Assembly: GCA_021404945.1 (NCBI GenBank)
Contig: QWHO01000012.1
Coordinates: 1 to 34,766 of the forward strand
Direction: 5' to 3'
From: a bacterium CPR1
Lineage (GTDB): Bacteria > Vulcanimicrobiota > Xenobia > Xenobiales > QWHO01
DNA: 34,766 nucleotides
A program made the translations under genes and the position numbers. The notes under the pieces were generated by a model. It did no database searches. It had not been told where the DNA came from and worked only from the letters and a program-made list of their open reading frames with translations. The first letter of the stretch is position 1; every line of letters starts with the position of its first letter. Below, one piece after another: positions 18,318 through 34,766 of this stretch.

Positions 18318-18656
18318 CTACTTCACGAACTTGCCAGGTTCAGAGATGAACTCGGCCTTTTCAGCCTCGTTACAGAAGACATAGGTCTTCCCCTTGTAAT
18401 CGAGGAGCTCGACGACCGCTTCTTCTTCAGTCGTGCCCTCCCTGACATTGCAGACAATGCAGACCCCCTTGTCGCCCTTCTTTTTGCTGCCAACAGCATA
18501 GGCAGCGACCTCGCTCGAGGCAGCGGGGCTGGACGTGGTGGCCGTGGTCGGGGTGCTTGAGGAGTTAGTTGGGCTGGACTGGGTCTCCGGCGAGTTTCCG
18601 CATCCCGTCAAGGACGCAGCTACGAGCAGGGTCATGAGCACAAGAGTGGATTTCAT
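18318..18656 (-). CDS. YHS/TRASH-like metal-binding lipoprotein
   Basis: The 112-residue product has a lipoprotein signal, MKSTLVLMTLLVAASLTGC, then a Ser/Thr-rich linker and a compact Cys motif: GVCIVCNVREG ... YKGKTYVFCNEAEKAEFIS ... PGKFVK. The C-x-x-C, the Y-x-F-C strand and the following helix plus P-x-K-F ending match the YHS/TRASH metal-binding pattern. I infer a periplasmic metal chaperone or sensor. Its ATG overlaps the stop of the RND permease gene (ATGA), so it is the last gene of the efflux operon. Confidence 0.85.
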   Translation of the reverse strand: MKSTLVLMTLLVAASLTGCGNSPETQSSPTNSSSTPTTATTSSPAASSEVAAYAVGSKKKGDKGVCIVCNVREGTTEEEAVVELLDYKGKTYVFCNEAEKAEFISEPGKFVK

Positions 18657-21600
18657 ACGACCTCCTTGGTGTTTGGGTTTCGACCTGGAACAAGAGTGTA
18701 AAGTGCCGGCAACAGCACCAGAGTGAGTAATGTCGAGGTGAATAGGCCGCCGATGACGACCGTGGCCAGGGGCTTCTGCACCTCGGCCCCGGTGCCAGTG
18801 GAGAGAGCCATCGGGAAAAACCCAATGGCGGCGACCGTCGCAGTCATCAGCACCGGCCGAAGCCTGTTCAGAGCCGCGTCCTCCACCGCGGCCATGAGCG
18901 CCATCCCGCGATCGAGATTCTGCCGGATGGACTGGACCATGACCATGTCCGCGAGCACGGCGATTCCCGACAGAGCGATGAAGCCAACCCCAGCCGAGAT
19001 AGAGAACGGAGTCCCGGTAAAGAACAGCGCCAGAATGCCGCCCGAAAGCGCGAAAGGGATGCCCGTAAAGACGCGCATTGCGTCCAGAACGCGGTTGTAG
19101 GTGATGTAGAGCAAGAGGAAGATTAGTGCGAAGGTGATGGGCACTACCACGGCCAGACGCAGGCTGCCGGATCGAAGATGCTCATACTGTCCCCCCCACT
19201 CGATGTGGTAGCCAGCTGGCAACGCCACTTGATGGTCGACCTTGCTCTGAACTTCCTCCACGTAGCTTCCCAGATCTCGGCCACGCACGTTGGCCTGGAC
19301 CACGATGCGTCGCTGGCCGCTCTCACGGCTGATCTGAACAGGACCCTCAAGACTGACGATGTCCACAACTTCAGCCAGAGGAACCTTTTGCCCGTTCTCC
19401 CCGGCCACCACGATCCGAGCGATGGCCTCCGGATCCTCACGGAAGAGCTCGGGATAACGGACCACGAGGTCAAAGGCGCGCTCCCCCTCGGCAATCTGTC
19501 CGACCGTTGCTCCGCCGATGGCAGTCTCAATGACCTGTTGGACGTCGGCCACGTTGAGACCGTAACGCGCGAGATCCGCTCGTCGAATGCGCAGCTGCAG
19601 GATAGGGAGCCCCGCAGTGCTCTCGACACTCACGTCGACGCCCCCATGCACGGAGCGCATAATTTTCGCCACCTCAGTGGCTTTCTGTTGCAGCAGAGTC
19701 ATGTCTGGACCAAAGATCTTGACCCCAATCTCCGAGCGGATTCCGACGCCCTCGGAGAGCTCGTTCATCCGCATCTCGATCGGCTGGGTGAAGGAAGCCT
19801 TCATCCCGGGAATGACGGCCAGAGCCTCCTCGATCCGCTCGATGAGCTCGGCCTTGGTGCGAGCTTCGCGCCACTCCGAGCGCGGCTTGAGAGGAAGGTA
19901 GATGTCAGCCTGAGCCAACAGCATAGGGTCGGTGGCGATGTCCGGACGGCCGATTCGGGTTGCGGCGCTCTCGATCTCGTTCGGGAACTTCTTCAGGAGA
20001 TAGCGCTCGATCCGAGTGGCGCGCTCGATGGCGGTCTCGACCGAGATTCCAGGAAGATACGAGGGATTGATGCAGATCGCTCCCTCGTCCAACTTGGGCA
20101 AGAACTCCGCCCCCAGCAACGGGAATAGAGCTGCCGTCAGGAAGAAGAACACGATGGCCGCCCCCAGCAGGCGCACGCGGAACCGCACCGCCCAGCGGAT
20201 CACCCTCAAGTAGTGGCGCTGGAGCCAGAGCATAGCCCGATTCTCCCGTTCGTCCTCGGGGCGCAGGAAATAGGCGCAAAGAGCCGGGATCACAGTCGCG
20301 GACAAGAGAAGGGCGCCGGTCAGGGCCAGGACGACGGTCAGCGCCATCGGACGGAACATCTTGCCCTCCACCCCGACCAGGCTGAGCACGGGCAGGTAGG
20401 CGGCAATGATGATCAGCTCGCCGAACTGACTGGCTTGGCGCACTTCGATGGTAGCGCTCCGGAGCGCCTCGAGACGCTCCTCTTGCGTCAGCGCCCGGCG
20501 CAAGACGTGGCGGCGCTCGGCCAGGCGGCGCACACAGTTCTCCACGATGATGACCGCGGCGTCTACGATGAGGCCGAAGTCGATCGCGCCCAGGCTCATG
20601 AGGTTGGCCGAGATGCCGAAGAAACGCATTCCGACCAGGGCAAACAGCATGGCCAGCGGGATGGCTGAGCTGACGATGAGCCCTGCCCGCAGTTGGAGCA
20701 GAAAGAGAAACAGCACTCCGATGACCAACAAACCGCCGTGCAGCAGGTTCTCTCCGGCTGTGTGGAGGGTCTGATTCACCAGGACCGTTCGATCCAGAAA
20801 GCCGACCAGTCTGACACCCGGGGGGAGCTCATCCTGGAGCTCGGCCATGCGCTCTTTGACACGCTGGGTCACCGTGCGGCTGTTTTCCCCCAGCAACATG
20901 ACGGCGATCGCGGCCACGGCCTCGCCGCGGCCGTCCTTGGTGATGGTCCCCTGGCGCAAGGCCGGACCGAACTGAACGTCAGCGACGTCGGCCAGGAGCA
21001 CGGGGACCCCGTTCTTGGCGGTCAGGACGATGGAGCGCAGGTCGTCCAGACTGGTGATGACTCCAATTCCTTGGACCAGCTGCTGCTCGTCCTGCTTGCG
21101 GATGTAGGCACCGCCGGCATTGCGGTTGTTCTTCTCAACCGCTTCCACCAGCTGGCTCAAGGAGATCCCGTAAGCTTTCAATCGCTCGGGGTCCGGGAGA
21201 ATCTGGTATTGCTTGACCAAGCCGCCGAACGTGTTGATCTCGATCACGCCCGGCACGGTCCGCAGGCGCGGCCGGACCTGCCAGTCGAGGATGGTGCGAC
21301 GCTCCATCAGAGAGACGCCTTCCCCTTCTACGAAGACGTAATAGATCTCGCCCAACCCCGTGGCGATGGGCGTCAAAACGGGCAACTCGACGCCGGGAGG
21401 CAGAGCCTTGCCGGCCTCCACCAGGCGCTCGGCGACCAGTTGCCGCGCTCGGTAAAGATCCGCGTCGTCTTCCAGGATGAGCGTGATCTGGGAGAGGCCA
21501 AACTGCGTGATGCTCCGCATCTGAACCACCTCGGGCACACCCGAGAGAGCCAGCTCGAGCGGTCGCGTCACCTGACGCTCCACTTCCTCCGGAGAGAGGG

Positions 21601-21763
21601 CGGGAGCCGTCGTGTTCACCACCACCTGCGGCGTCGTGATGTCCGGAACGGCATCGATGGGAAGCGTCCAGGCCGAGTACACACCCGCGAGAATCAATCC
21701 GAATGCGGCGACCAACACCAGCAAACGCTGGCGGATGGAGAAGTCGATCAGCGCGTTCAGCAT
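18653..21763 (-). CDS. CzcA/CusA family heavy-metal efflux RND permease
   Basis: HME-RND permeases use the proton gradient to pump metal cations from cytoplasm or periplasm through an adaptor and outer-membrane channel. The 1036-residue length fits. The N-terminus MLNALIDFSIRQRLLVLVA begins TM1, followed by DITTPQVVVNTTAPALSPEEVE, typical of the family. TM4 carries DFGLIVDAAVIIVEN (about residue 395), the D-F-G-x-x-x-D relay of Czc/Cnr-type Zn/Co/Cd/Ni pumps rather than the CusA form. GAEVQKPLATVVIGGLF near the C-terminus is also characteristic. The ATG at 21763 lies 2 bp after the adaptor stop. The substrate is inferred to be divalent cations. Confidence 0.93.
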   Translation of the reverse strand: MLNALIDFSIRQRLLVLVAAFGLILAGVYSAWTLPIDAVPDITTPQVVVNTTAPALSPEEVERQVTRPLELALSGVPEVVQMRSITQFGLSQITLILEDDADLYRARQLVAERLVEAGKALPPGVELPVLTPIATGLGEIYYVFVEGEGVSLMERRTILDWQVRPRLRTVPGVIEINTFGGLVKQYQILPDPERLKAYGISLSQLVEAVEKNNRNAGGAYIRKQDEQQLVQGIGVITSLDDLRSIVLTAKNGVPVLLADVADVQFGPALRQGTITKDGRGEAVAAIAVMLLGENSRTVTQRVKERMAELQDELPPGVRLVGFLDRTVLVNQTLHTAGENLLHGGLLVIGVLFLFLLQLRAGLIVSSAIPLAMLFALVGMRFFGISANLMSLGAIDFGLIVDAAVIIVENCVRRLAERRHVLRRALTQEERLEALRSATIEVRQASQFGELIIIAAYLPVLSLVGVEGKMFRPMALTVVLALTGALLLSATVIPALCAYFLRPEDERENRAMLWLQRHYLRVIRWAVRFRVRLLGAAIVFFFLTAALFPLLGAEFLPKLDEGAICINPSYLPGISVETAIERATRIERYLLKKFPNEIESAATRIGRPDIATDPMLLAQADIYLPLKPRSEWREARTKAELIERIEEALAVIPGMKASFTQPIEMRMNELSEGVGIRSEIGVKIFGPDMTLLQQKATEVAKIMRSVHGGVDVSVESTAGLPILQLRIRRADLARYGLNVADVQQVIETAIGGATVGQIAEGERAFDLVVRYPELFREDPEAIARIVVAGENGQKVPLAEVVDIVSLEGPVQISRESGQRRIVVQANVRGRDLGSYVEEVQSKVDHQVALPAGYHIEWGGQYEHLRSGSLRLAVVVPITFALIFLLLYITYNRVLDAMRVFTGIPFALSGGILALFFTGTPFSISAGVGFIALSGIAVLADMVMVQSIRQNLDRGMALMAAVEDAALNRLRPVLMTATVAAIGFFPMALSTGTGAEVQKPLATVVIGGLFTSTLLTLVLLPALYTLVPGRNPNTKEVV

Positions 21764-21765
21764 AC

Positions 21766-23298
21766 CTAATCGGCCCCGCAACAACCGTCGGCCAGCGCGC
21801 TCTTGAGGGCCTCGGACTTGAGATAGAAAGTTCCGCTGACGGCCAGCTTCTCGCCGGACTTCAAACCGTCGGTCACCTCCTGCCAGCCTTCCCCACGCGC
21901 TCCGAGCAAGACATGGCGTACCTCGAAGCTGCCGGGTCGCTCCAGCTCGACGTAAAGGGTGGGCCGGCCGGCGTGATCCTGCAACGCGCCGTCTGGAACC
22001 GTGAGCTTCTTGACGCGCACGTCGGTGATCAGGTCCCCTCGAACGAAGGCACCGGACTTGAGCGAGGCATCCGGATTCGTGAGCTCGGCACGGACCATGA
22101 CCGAGCGCGTCGTCTCATCGGCCGCTGGACCGATGGATTCCACACGGCCCTTGAAGGTGCGCTGGGAGGACTCGCCCCGTAAGACGACCGGGTCTCCTTG
22201 TCTCACTTTGGCCAGGTCGCGAGGCGCAACGGCCAGCTCGGCCCAGACTCGATCGAGATCGATGACCGTGAAGGCGACGTCCTCCGGGTCGACCAACTGG
22301 CCGAGAGTCAGGCTGGTGTCCTGAACCACCCCGGCGATCGGAGAGCGAATGGAGATGGTGCTCCCACCCCCCAGCTCGCCTCCCAGCAGAGCGACCTTGT
22401 CGGCGGCTCCATCACGCTCCACCGCAGCCAGACGGAGCTCCGACTCAGCCTCGACCAGCTCGCGGGAGGTTCGGTACCCCCCCGACTGGATGCGCTCTTC
22501 GCGGACCAGAGCACCACTGGCAATCTTCGCGCTCTTCTTGGCCAGCGCGACCTCGTTGCGGGCGGCGGTAACGGCGGCCTGGGCGGCTTTGAGGCGAGCG
22601 ATGCTGTTGTTGTAGTCGGCGCGGTTCCGCTCGCGCTCCTGGGCGGACACGAGCTCGGGCACGGCCTCGGCCCGGCGCATCCTGCGCTCGGCGATCTCGA
22701 GCTCGGTTCGCGCCTGGGCCAGAGAGCTCTCGGCTTGCGCCTGTCCGCTCTGCGCCTCGAAGAGTTGCGATTCCGCGCGCACAGTGCGCTCGCGGGATTC
22801 CTCCACGGCGGGTTGGCTGAATTGGCCTAAGTCCGCGAGTTGCCGCTGGCGTGCGAGGTTCGCCTCGAGCGCGGCCACCCTGGCGGCCGCCTGCCGGTAC
22901 TCGGCCTGGGCCGAGGCCAGGTCGGCGCTCTCCAGAACGGCCAGAACCTGGCCCGGGCGCACACGCGCCCCTACCAGCACCCGCAGCCCGATGACCTTGC
23001 CTTGAGCGGGCGGGCTGACCCGCGCCTGGCGATCCCCTCCGGTCAGGATCAGCCCGGAAACCGCCAGCTTCTCCTGGACATCCCGCACGATCGGGGAACC
23101 CAGATGAATCTCGGCGAGCTCCAGAGCCTCCTGAGTGACCTGGAGATCTCCGGCTTTGCCGGCCTGGCCCTCGGGGACCTCGAGACCCGGGTGCTCGGCC
23201 GCGGCGGGCGGGCGCGAGCGACCGGCCCGTAGCGCAAACCCCAGGCCCAGCACAAGAATCAGAGCAGCGGCAGCATGCCACCAGCGCAATTTCGTCAT
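21766..23298 (-). CDS. CzcB/CusB family periplasmic adaptor (membrane fusion protein)
   Basis: The adaptor links the RND pump to the outer-membrane factor. The 510-residue protein has an N-terminal anchor (HAAAALILVLGLGFALRAG), a lipoyl-like half (SPPAQGKVIGLRVLVGARVRPGQVLAVLES), a long coiled-coil hairpin (about residues 135-285), the second lipoyl half (IRSPIAGVVQDTSLTLGQLV), a beta-barrel (VWAELAVAPRDLAKVRQGD) and a membrane-proximal domain. It ends ALADGCCGAD, an unusual CysCys tail that may bind metal. Its ATG overlaps the stop of the TolC-like gene (ATGA) and its own stop is 2 bp before the permease start, so the three proteins are made together. Confidence 0.92.
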   Translation of the reverse strand: MTKLRWWHAAAALILVLGLGFALRAGRSRPPAAAEHPGLEVPEGQAGKAGDLQVTQEALELAEIHLGSPIVRDVQEKLAVSGLILTGGDRQARVSPPAQGKVIGLRVLVGARVRPGQVLAVLESADLASAQAEYRQAAARVAALEANLARQRQLADLGQFSQPAVEESRERTVRAESQLFEAQSGQAQAESSLAQARTELEIAERRMRRAEAVPELVSAQERERNRADYNNSIARLKAAQAAVTAARNEVALAKKSAKIASGALVREERIQSGGYRTSRELVEAESELRLAAVERDGAADKVALLGGELGGGSTISIRSPIAGVVQDTSLTLGQLVDPEDVAFTVIDLDRVWAELAVAPRDLAKVRQGDPVVLRGESSQRTFKGRVESIGPAADETTRSVMVRAELTNPDASLKSGAFVRGDLITDVRVKKLTVPDGALQDHAGRPTLYVELERPGSFEVRHVLLGARGEGWQEVTDGLKSGEKLAVSGTFYLKSEALKSALADGCCGAD

Positions 23299-28155: not shown

Positions 28156-28902
28156 CTACGCCCGCATGAGCAACATCGAGCCAGCCATTGCCGCCATCCC
28201 CACGTCTTCGAGCAAGGCCACCGTTGACAATGGCACGTGCAGGACCGTCCCCATGCAGGCGCAGTCGACATCGAGGCCGCGACGCAGGGCACTGAGCACC
28301 CCGAGCGCGCCGAAGGCCAGCAGGACGACTGTGGCGCTATAGATGACCATCGGCTGCCAGTGTGCGAGATAGCCCAGACCCAGTCCGAGCTCGAGGAAGG
28401 GGTAGACGTAGGCCCACCCCCGCCAGCGCCGTGCCAGGAGGTCATACATCGAGTACCCATTGGCGAAGCCTTTGAGGTCGAACAGTTTGAACATCGAGAA
28501 CACAACCAGGAAGAGACCCATGAAGTCGTGCATCCAGGCCGCGCCTTCGAACTCCGGAGCGGCCAGTTGGCGGGCCGTGGCGCTCAGTGCGACCAGCACG
28601 AGCAATACCACGAGGGGCTGGTAGTTACGATCCGGATGACGTGTCCCGGCCGCCTTCTCGACGCTGTACTTCTCAGGCGTCGCCTGGAACTTCTCTCTGC
28701 ACTTCTGGCTGCAGAAATAGAATCTCTCGCCGTGATGATCGTGCGTCAGGTCGGTCTCCGGGTCGACCTTCATGCCGCAGACGGGGTCAATTTTCATACC
28801 TTCATGATCCCCCGCCAGGAGGCTCTCGGGAAGGGATGACGGTACCTCTGGCGAGGCGGGCAGTGAACAGGAACCCTGGGTGCATGTTGTTTTCTGCTTC
28901 AT
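28156..28902 (-). CDS. YHS domain-MauE-like membrane protein
   Basis: The 248-residue protein joins an N-terminal YHS metal-binding domain (DPVCGMKVDPETD ... GERFYFCSQKCREKFQA, residues about 38-80) to a membrane domain with about five helices. The membrane part resembles MauE/DoxX-like proteins, with DVDCACMG near residue 211 matching the Cys motif of MauE. The N-terminus also carries CTQGSC. Expected role: metal or redox handling at the inner membrane. It is divergent from merR, and its promoter carries a MerR-type operator, so it is the likely target of that regulator. Its -10 (TAGACT) ends 6 nt before the ATG. Confidence 0.85.
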   Translation of the reverse strand: MKQKTTCTQGSCSLPASPEVPSSLPESLLAGDHEGMKIDPVCGMKVDPETDLTHDHHGERFYFCSQKCREKFQATPEKYSVEKAAGTRHPDRNYQPLVVLLVLVALSATARQLAAPEFEGAAWMHDFMGLFLVVFSMFKLFDLKGFANGYSMYDLLARRWRGWAYVYPFLELGLGLGYLAHWQPMVIYSATVVLLAFGALGVLSALRRGLDVDCACMGTVLHVPLSTVALLEDVGMAAMAGSMLLMRA

Positions 28903-28982: not shown

Positions 28983-29375
28983 ATGAGCTCCCTGAAAATC
29001 GGTGCCCTGGCTAAAGCGGCGGGCATCCCCATCGATACGGTCCGGTACTATGAGAAGACCGGCCTGCTGCCGGCCCCTCGCCGCACGGAGTCCGGTTATC
29101 GGGCCTATGATCCCGAGACCGTCCAGCGCCTGCATTTCATTCGCAACTCCAAGAAGATGGGCTTCACTCTCCAGGAGATTGCCCAGCTCCTTGAGCTGAG
29201 CCAGGCCGGCGCCCGATCCGAGGTCCGGCGGACGGCGCGTGAGAAAGTGCGTGTCATCGACCAGCGGATTGCCGAGCTGACCGAGCTGCGCCAGCAGCTG
29301 GTTCAACTCATCGAGGAGTGCGCCGACGAGCAGCACCATCCCGACTGCCCCATCCTGGAAGCGCTGAGCGGCTGA
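28983..29375 (+). CDS. MerR family metal-responsive regulator
   Basis: MerR regulators twist overlong promoters to activate metal-resistance genes. The 130-residue protein has the helix-turn-helix LKIGALAKAAGIPIDTVRYYEKTGLLPAPRRTESGYR (residues about 4-40), the winged part AYDPETVQRLHFIRNSKKMGFTL, and the dimerisation helix. The C-terminal metal loop is EECADEQHHPDCPILEAL, with Cys-x8-Cys as in ZntR/PbrR. The position that is Cys in ZntR/MerR and Ser in CueR aligns with Arg (ARSEVRRTA), so the metal site is atypical. It is divergent from the YHS-MauE gene and convergent with the broken cupredoxin gene, whose end is 8 bp away. Confidence 0.9.
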   Translation: MSSLKIGALAKAAGIPIDTVRYYEKTGLLPAPRRTESGYRAYDPETVQRLHFIRNSKKMGFTLQEIAQLLELSQAGARSEVRRTAREKVRVIDQRIAELTELRQQLVQLIEECADEQHHPDCPILEALSG

Positions 29376-29382
29376 GTCGGAC

Positions 29383-29860
29383 TCACTCCTCCACAACCAG
29401 TGTGCCGAGCATCGCTCGATGCAACCCTTCGCACTCCGCCGCGCACTCCATCCGGAACTCTCCTGGTCGATCCGCCACGAAGCTGAATGTGACGGTTTCC
29501 CCTGCAGCCACCTGCGGGCTCTGGACTTTGAATTCTGGGATGGCCAGAGCGTGTGTCCCTTCTTCGGAGTGCAGCTCAATGGTCACCCGATCTCCGCGTC
29601 GGACCTCTTGTCGGCTACGAACGTGACGCGCGCAGTTTCGCCCCGGCGCACCGGCTGGAGCCGAACTCCCAGTCCGGGGATCGACAGCGAGTGCTCTCCG
29701 TTCTGTAGGTCAGCCAGCGGGTCTTTCCACTGGCGCCGTAACTGCGGACGACGGCGTCAATGTGGATTACCTGGACGTCCCCATCCGCCTCGCCATGGGC
29801 TCCGAGCGGAAGCAAGGAAAGAGTCACCAGCGCGATGAGAAGCCAAATCCGTCGTTTCAT
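29383..29860 (-). pseudogene. Cupredoxin gene with two apparent frameshifts
   Basis: ATG 29860 has GGAGG 4 nt upstream and encodes a signal peptide, MKRRIWLLIALVTLSLLPLG, then VQVIHIDAVV. Coding then shifts near 29755 to a second frame giving QWKDPLADLQNGEHSLSIPG and RRGETARVTFVADK, and near 29615 to a third giving EVRRGDRVTIELHSEEGTHA, LAIPEFKV and the C-terminal copper site FRMECAAECEGLHRAMLGTL. The C-x3-C-x3-H-x2-M pattern is a CuA-type site. Two cupredoxin half-repeats are visible. Joined, the three frames would make about 158 residues. Either the gene decayed or the assembly has two indels. Confidence 0.75.
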
Positions 29861-29926
29861 CGTTCCTCCAGAACTCCTTGATGAAACAAGCTTAGGTGAC
29901 CGGCTGGACACCCGCACTGATCTGGA

Positions 29927-31003
29927 TCAGCGGAGGAAGCGCTCAGGCTGCTGCTCGAACTTTCGGCGGCACTGGGTCGAGCAGAAGTAATTCGTCTGCC
30001 CGCGGTAAGCATATCGATCTGCCACGCGGGCAGCCGTCAAGCTCATTCCGCAGACGGGATCGGCAAACTCCAACCCTTGCGCAAGACTCTGCACGGTCGG
30101 GCTGCTCGTTACTTCCCATTGAAGCCGCGGCGCCACCGTCGCCCAGACCAGATCCGGCAGCACCTGCTGGCACAGAACCTGGATGCGCCGGCTCAGCTCG
30201 AGCGCCCCCTGCAGCGAGCGTTCGGCACTCTCCTGACAGGCCTGAACATGCTCGAGGACCAGCTTCTGGACGGCCTGATCGAGCTCTTCCGGACGCCAGA
30301 GCCACGCTTCCAGCGCAGCGACGAAGAGTTGAGCGCGCAACGCCGCCCCGACGGCTTGCAGGGCCGTTTGCCGCCAGAGCCAGCTACCACGCTCAGGATA
30401 GACATGGCACCATACGTCCACCTCGCCCACAAGCAAACGAGCGGAGTCGGCCGGGTCTCGATGCAGGAACAGCTGCCGCACCTCGCGCTGGTGCTGCTCG
30501 AGCACTGGCTCGAGCTCCCGGACCGTGCGCGAGCTCGCCAGACTCTCCGGGACCGGCCAGGTTTCCCCGGAAAGGATGCGCAAGCCTTCGAGACGTCCCC
30601 AGGCCAGACTTCCACATTCAGAGTAGAGACGCTGTCCCACCGCCGCGTCGATCTGTTCCTCGAGAGTCCCGGAAGACTGGGCCTGCAAGTGGGCTACAAG
30701 CATGGCTCCAAGACGGTCGAGCTGCTCCGAGCTGAGACCGGTGCAGAGACGGCCGTGACAGTCGAGAATGTCCTCGCGGAAGAGACGAACGGCCTCATTC
30801 CGCTGAGAGCGCTGGCGCTCGGCCTCCTCGGCGGTGACCCATCCACTCGCGGTTTCCACCTTCTGCGTCGCCTGGCGGACGAAGCTCTGGATCTCCTCGT
30901 AGGATTGCGTCAACCGGGACATTGCATCCGGAGCCGACGGCCTGGCCCCCGCCTCCGAAGGTGCGAACCCCTGTAGGAGATGACGAAAGAAGCCTCCAAA
31001 CAT
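29927..31003 (-). CDS. Large helical domain fused to a C-terminal YHS domain
   Basis: The 358-residue protein starts MFGGFFRHLLQGFAPSEAG and has no signal peptide. Residues about 30-310 are helical, with scattered Cys and Trp (ILDCHGRLCTGL, VWCHVYPERGSWLWRQTALQ), in a fold I do not recognise. The last 46 residues are a clear YHS domain: FADPVCGMSLTAARVAD, then YRGQTNYFCSTQCRRKFEQQ. YHS domains bind copper or other soft metals. The ATG at 31003 is 2 bp after the stop of the small lipoprotein gene, so the two are coupled. It lies between RND/lipoprotein genes and the cupredoxin gene. Confidence 0.8.
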   Translation of the reverse strand: MFGGFFRHLLQGFAPSEAGARPSAPDAMSRLTQSYEEIQSFVRQATQKVETASGWVTAEEAERQRSQRNEAVRLFREDILDCHGRLCTGLSSEQLDRLGAMLVAHLQAQSSGTLEEQIDAAVGQRLYSECGSLAWGRLEGLRILSGETWPVPESLASSRTVRELEPVLEQHQREVRQLFLHRDPADSARLLVGEVDVWCHVYPERGSWLWRQTALQAVGAALRAQLFVAALEAWLWRPEELDQAVQKLVLEHVQACQESAERSLQGALELSRRIQVLCQQVLPDLVWATVAPRLQWEVTSSPTVQSLAQGLEFADPVCGMSLTAARVADRYAYRGQTNYFCSTQCRRKFEQQPERFLR

Positions 31004-31005
31004 CG

Positions 31006-31239
31006 TCAGGGCTTCTTCTTCATATCCATCTTGCCATTGCAGCCGTTGGCGGAGCAGCCGTTGGCCGAGCACGCCATGGGAGACCCGCTTGGCGATGAGG
31101 GCGACTTAGCATTCTCTCCAGGGGACGGGGTCGCAGGCGCCGGCGTTGAACCGCCTCCGCCCGACTCCCCCGAGCACCCGCCCGCCAGAAGACCGGCCAC
31201 CGCAGCCGCGATCAGCTTGTGGAAGTCTCGTCGTTTCAT
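31006..31239 (-). CDS. Small lipoprotein with tandem Cys repeat
   Basis: The 77-residue protein has a lipoprotein signal (MKRRDFHKLIAAAVAGLLAG, Cys at the lipobox LAGGC) and a Ser/Pro/Gly linker. It ends in MACSANGCSANGCNGKMD, where three cysteines sit at five-residue intervals. Asn, Cys and Met here could bind Cu(I) or a similar soft metal; that is inference. GGAGG sits 7 nt before the ATG, and the ATG also overlaps the stop of the RND gene (ATGA). The next gene begins immediately after its stop. Confidence 0.8.
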   Translation of the reverse strand: MKRRDFHKLIAAAVAGLLAGGCSGESGGGGSTPAPATPSPGENAKSPSSPSGSPMACSANGCSANGCNGKMDMKKKP

Positions 31240-34200
31240 GGTGTTTCCTCCTTTTTCAAGACCCGCCGAATCCAGCGGGAAAGATCGTCGATGTACGTGT
31301 GCATGATGGGAATGTCGAAGAGGGAAAGGATGGTGCCGACCAGCAGCCCGCCCACGACGGCCGTCGCTAGGGGCTGATAAGCATCCAGGCCAGTGCGCGG
31401 GAACAAAGCCACCGGAAGCATCACGATCAGCGAGATCCCCGCCGTCATCAGGATGGGCCGCAACCGCTCCGGACATGCCCGCACGATGGCCTCGTCACGC
31501 TCCATCCCTTCCCCGCGATAACGCAAGATATGGTCGATCAGCAGCACGGCGGTGGTGATGTCCATTCCGGTCAGCACGATGATGCCCAGGATGGACACGG
31601 TGGAGAATGCCTGTCCTGCCAGCCACAACGCCGTGAAGACGCCGGCCAGCTCGAGGGGCAGCGAGGCGATCATCTGGAAGGGCTGCAGAAAGCCGTGGAA
31701 TTGCACGACGAGCACCAGGTACATCAGGACCAGGGCAAACCCGAGGCCCTGAATGAGGCGGCGGAAGCTCTCCATCATCTGCGTCATGTCGCCCCGCATC
31801 TCCATCCCGTAGCCGGGCGGGAAGTTCAACTCGCGATAGGCGTTGGCCACCAGGTTCATCACGACGTCCATCGAGGGCAGATTGCCGATCCGGTAATAGC
31901 CCGTGACCCCGATGACCCGACGCAACCCGTCATGCTCGATCACGCTGGGACTGACCGTTTTCTCCACGGTTGCCACCGATTTCAGGGGCACGGTCTTGCC
32001 GTCTGGCGTAGTCAGATACACCCCCTCGAGGTCCTCGGCATCCGCTCGGCTGTCCTGACGGTACCGCAGCAGGATCGTGTTCTGACGGATGTTGGGTTGA
32101 CGGTAGAACTGCTGGGTGAGTCCTCCTCGCAGCGAATAATAGGCTTGCTGGGCGATCTCTGCGGGGGACAGGTCCAGCTCGCGCGCCCTCTGTGGATCGA
32201 CGTGGATGCGCAGCTCCGGCAAACTGAGGCTCCACGTCGTGCCGGGCTGGAACAACTCGGGCATCTTCTGCGCAGTCCGGAGCGTCTCCGAGCCCAGGCG
32301 ATCGAGCTCACGAAGGTCCGGCCCATAGATGTACACGTGGATGGGTGCCGCAGCCGTTGCCATGACATCCGAGCCCATCTCCTTGATCTGGAGACGTCGG
32401 ATCCCTGGTATGGTCGTCATGGCCTCGCTCTGAATGGAGTCCATGACCTGCCAGATCGTCCGCTTCCTCGAGTCCTTGTCGGAGAACGTCAGCATCATGC
32501 TGGCGCCGTTGACCTGGGGCATGGAGTAGCCTGTAAAGAAAGGTGTCCAGCTCTCGAACATCGATTCCTGGCCGATCTCGATGCTGGCCTTCTCGAGCTC
32601 GGGATACTTAAGCATGATTTGCTCCAGCTGGTGTACGGCTTTCTCGGTGGCGGCAAACGAGGTTCCCGGTTGCATCTCGAGGAAACCGTTGGCCTGGCCG
32701 ACGTCCGCCAGCGGCATCATCTCGCTCCCAATGAAGTAGTAGAACGTGCAGCCGACAATGAGCGTGGCCAGGACCCGGCAGAAGTTGACGAACCTGTGCT
32801 TTAGGGTCCAGCGGATGGCCGACGCATAGGCTCGCTCCAATCGATCCAGCCCGCGCTGGAACGGATCGAGAACGCGATAGAGCCAGCGTCCGAGCGGGTG
32901 CCGGCGCTCCTTCTCGCGCACTTCCTCCGGTCGGAGCAGGTTGGCACAGAGCAGCGCCGTCAACGTAAACGATACCAGCATCGAGGCCAGGAGGCCGAAG
33001 ATCAGGGGCCAGACCAGCTCGACAAACATGAGGCCGACGATGCCTCCGGAGAAGAGGAGCGGCGAGAGCGCCAGCACCATCATCAAAGTGGAAGCGATCA
33101 CCACCAGACGCACCTCCGCGATTCCTTCCATGGTCGCGGTCTTCGGGTCCTGGCCCAGGCGCAGGTGGCGCTCCACGGAGTGGATGTCGATGATGCTGTC
33201 GTCCACCAGACGCCCGATCGAGAGGAGCAGCCCGATCAGGGTCCCGCTGTTGAACGTCATCCCAAGCGGCAACATCATCAGCACTGCCAACGCCAGAGAG
33301 GTTGGCACCGTCACCATGGCGATCAGCGTGCCGCGCCACTCGCCCAGGAAGAACAAGACGGCCAGGGCCGTGAGGAGCACAGCCAGACCGAGCTCATGCC
33401 AGACGTTGGCAAACAAGATGTTGACGAAGCTGGCATTGTCGTAGGCAACGTCGAACTTGAGGCCGGGGTTCTGTCTCTCGAGCTCGCGCACGACCCGCAT
33501 CACCTGGGGGACGACCTGGGCCGAGCTGGCGCCCGGGTTCTGGATCACCGAAACCTGGATGGAGGGGATGACCTCGCCTGGCGTGCCTGGCAAGTGCTTG
33601 AGGTAATGGTACGCGCTGCGGCGCTCCCAGTGGGTGTCGAGAACCTCGGCGACGTCCTGCACGTAGACGACTCGCTCGCCGTCCGCCTTGATCGGGACCT
33701 TACGCAAATCGGCGGCACTGAGAACCTGGGACTCCACTCGCACGATGGACTCGCGCGGACCCGACGTCAGCGTTCCGGCGGACTCGGCCGTGTTGAATCG
33801 GTCCAGTGCCTCGCGGATCTCCAAAATCGAAAGGCCAAAGCCAGCCAGCTTGTCGCGGTCTACGATGACCTGCAATTGCCGGCGGTACCCGCCGAAGACG
33901 ACCACCGAGTAGACATCGGGAAGGCTCTTGATCCGACTCACGCCCTGGTTGTCCGCGAACTCGCGGACCCGCTCGGGAGTCCATCCCTGGGCCGGATCTC
34001 CGGTCAGTGACAGCGAGAGGATTGGGACGTTCAAAGGGTCCACCGGGATGACGAACGATGGCTTGAGGTTCGCTCCGGTCGCCGGCATGTTCGCCGAGGC
34101 CACGTCCAGAAGGCTCTGCACCTCGACGCGCGCCTTGCGCATGTCGTGCCCGTAGGGAAACTCCAGGGTGACGATAGAGAACCCGTCCTGCGAGGACGAG

Positions 34201-34451
34201 CGGATGAAGCGGAGCCCGGGAACATGCACGAGCTGCTCTTCCAGAGGCTTGGAGACGTAGGTCTCCATCTCCTGCGCAGACAGCCCAGGCATCGTGGTGA
34301 CGATACCCAGCATCGGGCTTTCCACGTAGGGCGCGAAGCGGCGCGGAATCCGCTCGCTGATCGCCACGCCGGCCAGCCACAGGAGAGCCACGTAGATGGC
34401 CACCACGGCGTAGGGATGCTCGATCGACCAGCGTGGAAGAGCTCGCATCAT
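31236..34451 (-). CDS. RND efflux permease, divergent type
   Basis: The 1071-residue protein has the standard RND layout: a first membrane helix near WSIEHPYAVVAIYVALLWLAG, two large periplasmic loops and two sets of six helices. In TM4 the motif is LLSIGRLVDDSIIDIHSVERH (about residue 415). The paired Asp of HAE pumps is kept, but the usual V-E-N after it is replaced by I-H-S. The first periplasmic loop contains Met-rich stretches such as SMFESW and ASMMLTF. Neither the classical CzcA D-F-G motif nor a TM10 Lys is visible. The start ATG 34451 overlaps the upstream cupredoxin stop. Context (cupredoxins, Cys/YHS proteins) suggests copper or silver. Confidence 0.85.
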   Translation of the reverse strand: MMRALPRWSIEHPYAVVAIYVALLWLAGVAISERIPRRFAPYVESPMLGIVTTMPGLSAQEMETYVSKPLEEQLVHVPGLRFIRSSSQDGFSIVTLEFPYGHDMRKARVEVQSLLDVASANMPATGANLKPSFVIPVDPLNVPILSLSLTGDPAQGWTPERVREFADNQGVSRIKSLPDVYSVVVFGGYRRQLQVIVDRDKLAGFGLSILEIREALDRFNTAESAGTLTSGPRESIVRVESQVLSAADLRKVPIKADGERVVYVQDVAEVLDTHWERRSAYHYLKHLPGTPGEVIPSIQVSVIQNPGASSAQVVPQVMRVVRELERQNPGLKFDVAYDNASFVNILFANVWHELGLAVLLTALAVLFFLGEWRGTLIAMVTVPTSLALAVLMMLPLGMTFNSGTLIGLLLSIGRLVDDSIIDIHSVERHLRLGQDPKTATMEGIAEVRLVVIASTLMMVLALSPLLFSGGIVGLMFVELVWPLIFGLLASMLVSFTLTALLCANLLRPEEVREKERRHPLGRWLYRVLDPFQRGLDRLERAYASAIRWTLKHRFVNFCRVLATLIVGCTFYYFIGSEMMPLADVGQANGFLEMQPGTSFAATEKAVHQLEQIMLKYPELEKASIEIGQESMFESWTPFFTGYSMPQVNGASMMLTFSDKDSRKRTIWQVMDSIQSEAMTTIPGIRRLQIKEMGSDVMATAAAPIHVYIYGPDLRELDRLGSETLRTAQKMPELFQPGTTWSLSLPELRIHVDPQRARELDLSPAEIAQQAYYSLRGGLTQQFYRQPNIRQNTILLRYRQDSRADAEDLEGVYLTTPDGKTVPLKSVATVEKTVSPSVIEHDGLRRVIGVTGYYRIGNLPSMDVVMNLVANAYRELNFPPGYGMEMRGDMTQMMESFRRLIQGLGFALVLMYLVLVVQFHGFLQPFQMIASLPLELAGVFTALWLAGQAFSTVSILGIIVLTGMDITTAVLLIDHILRYRGEGMERDEAIVRACPERLRPILMTAGISLIVMLPVALFPRTGLDAYQPLATAVVGGLLVGTILSLFDIPIMHTYIDDLSRWIRRVLKKEETP

Positions 34452-34766
34452 CGGACTACGACCGTTCCGCGCAACATGTCCATGCCGCAATGGAATTTCA
34501 GCGAATGGCCGGAGTGCGCGGGCAGCTCGATCGTCACCGGTTGGTTGAGAGGCAGAGCCTTGCGCAGTTTGAGCTCGGGGAAGATCACCTCAGTGCCACA
34601 AGTCGAGTCCGTGGTGCGCAGGAAGGTAACCTGCGCCTTGTGGCCCGCCGGAAGCGTCAGGCTGGCGGGCTCGAAGCCCTTCTCGGTGACCCGAACGGTC
34701 GGTGTCTCGGTCTCGCTGGCCTTCGAAGCGGCGACCGCCACGGGGTCATTCTCCCGCAGGGTCGTC
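34448..34766 (-). CDS. Cupredoxin-domain protein, C-terminal part (runs off window edge)
   Basis: The frame is open to the window end. The visible 105 residues carry one cupredoxin domain: VRVTEKGFEPASLTLPAG, then DSTCGTEVIFPELKL, and HSLKFHCGMDMLRGTVVV, with His, Cys and Met residues as candidate copper ligands. A GTG at 34741 is possible, but coding continues upstream (TTLRENDPVAVAA), so a longer protein is likely. Its stop overlaps the RND start (ATGA). It is the first visible gene of the second metal operon. Confidence 0.8.
   Translation of the reverse strand, partial: TTLRENDPVAVAASKASETETPTVRVTEKGFEPASLTLPAGHKAQVTFLRTTDSTCGTEVIFPELKLRKALPLNQPVTIELPAHSGHSLKFHCGMDMLRGTVVVR

Follow-up and report, generated by a model that had tools for sequence, protein, structure and literature searches.

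A member of a helical protein family of one bacterial order joined to a C-terminal YHS domain beside RND and cupredoxin genes

The window analysed here, a stretch of 34,766 nucleotides, carries on its minus strand a gene (29927..31003) that opens with an ATG at 31003, ends with a stop at 29927 and encodes 358 amino acids with no internal stop. The open reading frame, Pfam and an AlphaFold2 model agree that a large helical domain and a C-terminal YHS domain are combined in its product, as the original prediction held. Residues 1-298 (30110..31003, minus strand) make up an orphan helical part, recognised from relatives, alignment and model, with a core that is well predicted from about residue 61. 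A linker of about 15 residues (299-313; 30065..30109, minus strand), its left border set from the alignment, leads into the YHS domain found by Pfam at residues 314-357 (29933..30064, minus strand). The observation is confirmed, and the fusion looks real, the joint being in frame and beyond chance. The strongest 19-residue Kyte-Doolittle mean in the protein is 1.39; there is thus no strong hydrophobic or membrane segment, and a cytoplasmic location, as first proposed, is a fair reading.

Upstream of the fusion gene on the same strand are a cupredoxin-like gene (34448..34741; Pfam), an RND permease (31236..34490) and a small gene (31006..31239) whose product resembles a lipoprotein by eye and ends in a Cys-rich tail (CSANGCSANGCNGK). 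The cupredoxin also precedes two homologues of the pump in relatives from the same order. The genes are tightly linked: a 4-base overlap joins the RND stop to the start of the lipoprotein-like gene, whose own stop lies 2 bases before the fusion ATG, an arrangement that suggests translational coupling. The lipoprotein-like protein is 77 amino acids long and has no match in Pfam; its CSANGCSANGCNGKMDMKKK tail may bind metal.

Directly downstream is a cupredoxin gene (29383..29917, minus strand) that is split over three frames, and the local sequence quality must therefore be regarded as imperfect. The CxxxCxxxHxxM motif in its C-terminal piece (29383-29586) is presumably that of a CuA-like protein. 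The interruption could stem from sequence error or mark a decayed gene, and the likeness between the stretches GEHSLSIPG... and GTHALAIPE... hints that half of it was duplicated. A MerR-family metal regulator follows in divergent orientation (28983..29375, plus strand; MerR and CueR are the nearest models, neither reaching its cut-off). Adjoining this regulator, and adding another YHS fusion to the cluster, is a protein in which Pfam places YHS with a MauE-type membrane domain (28156..28902, minus strand). Further downstream are an ArsR-family regulator, an arsenite methyltransferase, an LMWPc-type protein that we take for a putative arsenate reductase, an aquaporin-family protein and a CusA/CzcA system.

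The location of the fusion gene had been described as a cupredoxin/RND operon. Both kinds of gene are indeed its neighbours, but the adjacent permease scores only 318.7 bits against the CusA/CzcA model TIGR00914, for which the cut-off is 701.45, and its best NCBIfam models, of multidrug RND type, are likewise below cut-off. The other pump in the window (18653-21784) is a true CusA/CzcA with 1209.1 bits. A 'copper operon' label therefore rests on the neighbours and not on the pump model. The closest pump homologues in relatives are 55-78% identical (nearest ones, some of them partial), and directly behind two of them lies a gene of SCO1/SenC, a copper-chaperone family (L045:9975-10538 and L046:6209-6769), a hint that copper may be the substrate served by this RND subfamily, even though it scores below the cut-off. 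A homologue on a Nostoc plasmid, 48% identical, is accompanied by two annotated heavy-metal-responsive regulators, FixH and arsenic genes. From these sequence comparisons a metal role, probably in copper handling, is likely for the adjacent pump. The gene order around the fusion gene is not conserved: no match to the fusion protein (tblastn, 1e-3) or to the small lipoprotein was found in 14 neighbourhoods of pump homologues in relatives, for eight of which the downstream gene calls were read.

The YHS domain (PF04945) is matched with an E value of 6.6e-11 and 42.5 bits, against a cut-off of 30.3. It contains Asp315, Cys318, Cys341 and Cys345, the full set of one Asp and three Cys ligands proposed for copper, an assignment made by analogy with the Mycobacterium phlei adenylyl cyclase as presented in PMC4626032. 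Of 57 YHS sequences from the phylum that were compared, 33 have this set; the three-Cys pattern is absent from 22, and the presence of a YHS domain alone therefore does not imply metal binding. The YHS part was poorly modelled by AlphaFold2, with pLDDT means of 35-55 and values below 50 at residues 311-342.

In the same model, built from a seven-row alignment, the protein is mostly helical and without strands over residues 24-310, with 10-residue pLDDT means of 59-96 in this range and 74-96 within residues 61-300. No Pfam or NCBIfam family rose above its cut-off for the helical part in any of the seven members of the family described below, and NCBIfam models run on the whole fusion protein gave no match up to E 1. 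Foldseek comparisons of two helical models with the PDB, and of the second model with a viral library, returned no match at E<=0.001. The best VIA-align matches of the two models (Z 5.7 with 79 aligned residues and rmsd 5.3; Z 7.2 with 66 aligned and rmsd 2.7) mostly pair C-terminal helices with unrelated helical proteins and lie under the tool's level for common helical arrangements. The description of the helices as an unrecognised type is thus borne out, since no known family of unrelated function was matched, and on these models the helical part appears to have no known fold in the PDB and viral libraries, an absence that is no proof of a new fold. Weak Pfam and NCBIfam matches in single members were taken as noise. 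When the sequences of solved structures were searched, the best hit was to a covalently connected cytochrome c555 trimer (E 0.0044, 47 positions), which was taken as chance. A conserved N-terminal amphipathic helix, considered as a membrane anchor, was dropped, the moment being reached by at most 2% of shuffles in only two of seven members.

Fifteen columns of the seven-row alignment are invariant, including W149, P150, P152, G193, W198, P203 and W287 (fusion-protein numbering), and judging from the residues involved they look structural. The alignment has no invariant Cys or His and no conserved catalytic or metal residues; His83 is found in six of the seven rows.

Treated initially as a one-off, the helical part proved to belong to an order-restricted family of seven. 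In 149 Vulcanimicrobiota/Eremiobacterota genomes, a profile search found the seven copies in four genomes, all within one order and two taxonomic families, with three copies in the source genome. The two other source-genome loci are 31-33% identical to the helical part and were found in a single-sequence search with E values of 6.4e-32 and 6.3e-29 over residues 25-294 and 8-292 of 298; the profile was built from these rows, whose coverage by it therefore holds by construction. A single-sequence search of 98 genomes matched five, including the source genome and one match, in genome G071, that was taken as chance. Wider searches of genome contigs produced no relatives with the single protein and, with a three-row alignment, three loci, none of them a new member; no relative of the helical part was found among plasmids, phages or viral contigs. 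A search for divergent relatives in 11 genomes, with E up to 10, gave three weak matches (E 0.27-1.3) taken as chance.

The G071 locus (L010:1351-1983, minus strand) encodes a TetR-family regulator (TetR_N, 8.4e-15), and its match to the helical part lies in the C-terminal part of that protein (E 7.9e-4, query residues 170-248; in tblastn, 33% identity over 78 columns, helical residues 171-248). We dropped it as a chance match since it was unreported by the 149-genome profile search and received a profile comparison probability of 0.9%. Nothing else hinted at a known relative, and the match is possibly chance and possibly the trace of a regulator-like helical fold.

All six other copies of the helical family lack a YHS domain and end near the domain boundary. 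Ten of their neighbour genes were scanned with Pfam. Seven had a match (E<=1e-5), to an rRNA methyltransferase, Hsp20, an ion channel, an acyl-CoA dehydrogenase, an FAD enzyme, NmrA and Uma2, none of them a metal-resistance gene; the three with no match include both neighbours from genome G005. Given relatives that lack YHS and typed neighbours that are not metal-related, the helices look like the general part of the protein and the YHS domain like a metal input gained later.

YHS domains had been expected to occur usually alone, in P-type ATPases or with short partners, an expectation contradicted within this phylum. They turned up in 55 of 148 phylum genomes (E<=0.001; 44 exceed the cut-off), and we examined 56 loci, namely those of 72 search rows with an open frame of at least about 200 amino acids, 13 rows with shorter frames and three in the window being left out. 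In 25 of the 56 the YHS domain stands behind an XdhC/CoxI-like (20) or DJ-1-like (5) protein, and large partners are therefore normal for YHS here. The XdhC/CoxI type comprises L062, L064, L066, L067, L073, L074, L076, L078, L079, L081, L082, L089, L090, L093, L094, L098, L100, L108, L110 and L111, and the DJ-1/PfpI type L092, L095, L099, L101 and L107. A Pfam scan confirmed two of the former and one of the latter, the DJ-1 protein having its YHS below cut-off (27.5 versus 30.3 bits). Measured from the first in-frame start, the partners are mostly 250-320 amino acids long; the frames of L090, L100 and L108 are longer and L099 is shorter (141), while L079 has masked sequence behind its YHS. At one further locus the YHS domain lies inside a permease (PF03773). 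The helical part matched none of the 56 fetched loci (tblastn, 1e-5), and judged by sequence this partner of YHS appears unique so far among the loci examined. Titles and opening lines of abstracts, mostly from outside subscription journals, contained no helical-YHS protein of this kind. In the fusion a lineage-specific family that is itself undescribed thus enters a new domain combination, seen so far in one draft genome (798 contigs, completeness 94), which is the sole representative of its taxonomic family among the genomes listed for comparison.

The closest parallel is also one in print that speaks against the restriction of YHS to short partners: a class IIIc adenylyl cyclase of M. phlei in which a C-terminal YHS domain acts as a copper sensor, the enzyme being activated by 1-10 uM Cu2+ according to PMC4626032. 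As described there, that protein shares with the fusion an N-terminal partner, a short linker (8 residues, compared with about 15 here), a C-terminal YHS domain with Asp and three Cys, and a cytosolic location; the partner is a known, copper-activated enzyme in the cyclase and an orphan helical family in the fusion.

Within the phylum, the XdhC/CoxI-YHS proteins resemble the fusion in having a large N-terminal partner and YHS near the C-terminus. Unlike the helices, however, what precedes YHS in them is, by Pfam, a Moco-maturation factor containing a Rossmann domain, and the four flanks that were read (L064, L066, L067 and L098) adjoin not pumps but molybdenum-hydroxylase-type genes, the C-terminus of a large subunit being seen nearby by eye. 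In L067 this gene was confirmed by Pfam (PF20256), with an AAA ATPase on the other side. In the DJ-1/PfpI-YHS proteins YHS is likewise C-terminal and the partner about 250 amino acids long, but the partner is different and the YHS is divergent, lacking the three-Cys pattern in all five. Copper P-type ATPases have a YHS of the same Asp plus three-Cys class, and that of the probable ATPase G000:C645 is identical to the fusion domain at 18 of 43 positions; there, in contrast, the domain is N-terminal and is followed by 723 amino acids, whose ATPase nature we infer.

The reading that we tentatively prefer, giving it slightly less than an even chance, is that the fusion serves a metal-resistance operon as an accessory protein, cytoplasmic and responsive to metal, in which YHS binds metal and switches the helical part. 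An order-specific helical protein, elsewhere free of a metal domain, would have gained a C-terminal YHS domain whose Asp315, Cys318, Cys341 and Cys345 would coordinate a transition metal, copper being the likeliest; binding would alter the contacts or conformation of the helices; and the helices would then act on a partner, either the pump, with which we infer co-translation, or some other target. Pointing this way are a YHS domain over its cut-off with the ligand set proposed for copper in the M. phlei study (PMC4626032), the tight overlaps between the genes, neighbours that include a cupredoxin, a CuA-like piece, a MerR-family regulator, the YHS-MauE protein, arsenic genes and a CusA/CzcA pump, the SCO1/SenC genes behind two homologous pumps, and helical relatives that lack YHS. 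Against it stand the low CusA/CzcA score of the adjacent permease, the unconserved gene order, helices in which no catalytic or metal residue is conserved, the poorly modelled YHS domain, the 22 YHS sequences without the three-Cys pattern and the restriction of the fusion to a single genome. Of the two roles first suggested, metal sensing, probably of copper and by analogy with the cyclase, is the one retained.

More speculatively, and in our view improbably, the helices could belong to an adaptor family turned by YHS into a copper-responsive cytoplasmic regulator of the RND pump, YHS being a portable metal input with several unrelated partners and the whole a novel kind of switch under metal control. 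If so, a new effector would join the few YHS-controlled proteins, an uncharacterised helical family would gain its first functional handle, and YHS would serve as a movable module in Vulcanimicrobiota. Because six relatives lack the module, a comparison of members with and without YHS would tell apart what the helices do and what the metal input adds.

An alternative to metal-responsive switching is metal delivery, in which YHS would carry copper while the helical part docks on a client (the pump, cupredoxin maturation or another enzyme), the protein acting as a tethered chaperone. It matches the 20 of the 56 loci at which YHS is fused to a maturation factor of XdhC/CoxI type, and soluble CoxF supplies copper to the Mo-Cu CO dehydrogenase, as stated in PMC4240915, so that YHS may be the copper site of the XdhC/CoxI-YHS proteins; we found no paper joining the YHS domain and XdhC. 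On the strength of this parallel, to which SCO1/SenC behind two homologous pumps may be added, we regard delivery as a serious if unlikely explanation. Against it, the neighbouring cupredoxins appear by eye to be exported whereas the fusion protein looks cytoplasmic, and the typed neighbours of the helical relatives include no metal-resistance gene.

It is rather doubtful that the YHS domain is instead a structural or protein-contact treble clef, with zinc or no metal and no metal-dependent switch. Below-cut-off Pfam matches to zf-FLZ and zf-FCS do cover the same stretch, and an FCS-like zinc finger takes part in protein-protein interaction according to PMC4047054, but the full Asp plus three-Cys set and the metal-gene setting argue against a purely structural role.

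We consider it very improbable that adjacent genes, or an assembly error, were joined in frame to simulate a fusion. The single genome and the frameshifted next gene would allow this, as would the difference in GC between the two parts at codon positions 1 and 2 (0.74 and 0.46 in the helical part, 0.58 and 0.53 in linker plus YHS), and in-frame GTG304 and TTG311 could in principle start a separate YHS-only peptide. However, the frame has no stop, GC3 is equal across the junction (0.74 in the helical part, 0.75 in linker plus YHS), and since the six relatives end near the end of the helical part, the joint falls at a domain boundary inside a single frame.

That the helices store copper, the other role first suggested, is hardly credible despite the predicted helices and copper-type neighbours that recall Csp proteins, since Csp bundles are lined with many Cys and the fusion protein, with 6 Cys in 298 helical residues, 2-3 in relatives and a best column that is Cys in five of seven, has no such Cys-lined bundle.

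The metal-responsive reading aside, a recurrent arrangement was seen at the two pumps of the window. A lipoprotein-like gene (18318-18656, minus strand) overlaps the stop of the CusA/CzcA gene and ends in a divergent YHS-like stretch (PF04945, 23.8 bits, below the cut-off of 30.3). At both RND genes, therefore, a small lipoprotein-like gene overlaps the pump gene and a YHS-type module is close by, within the 18318-18656 protein itself in one case and, for the other pump, in the next gene, which starts at 31003.
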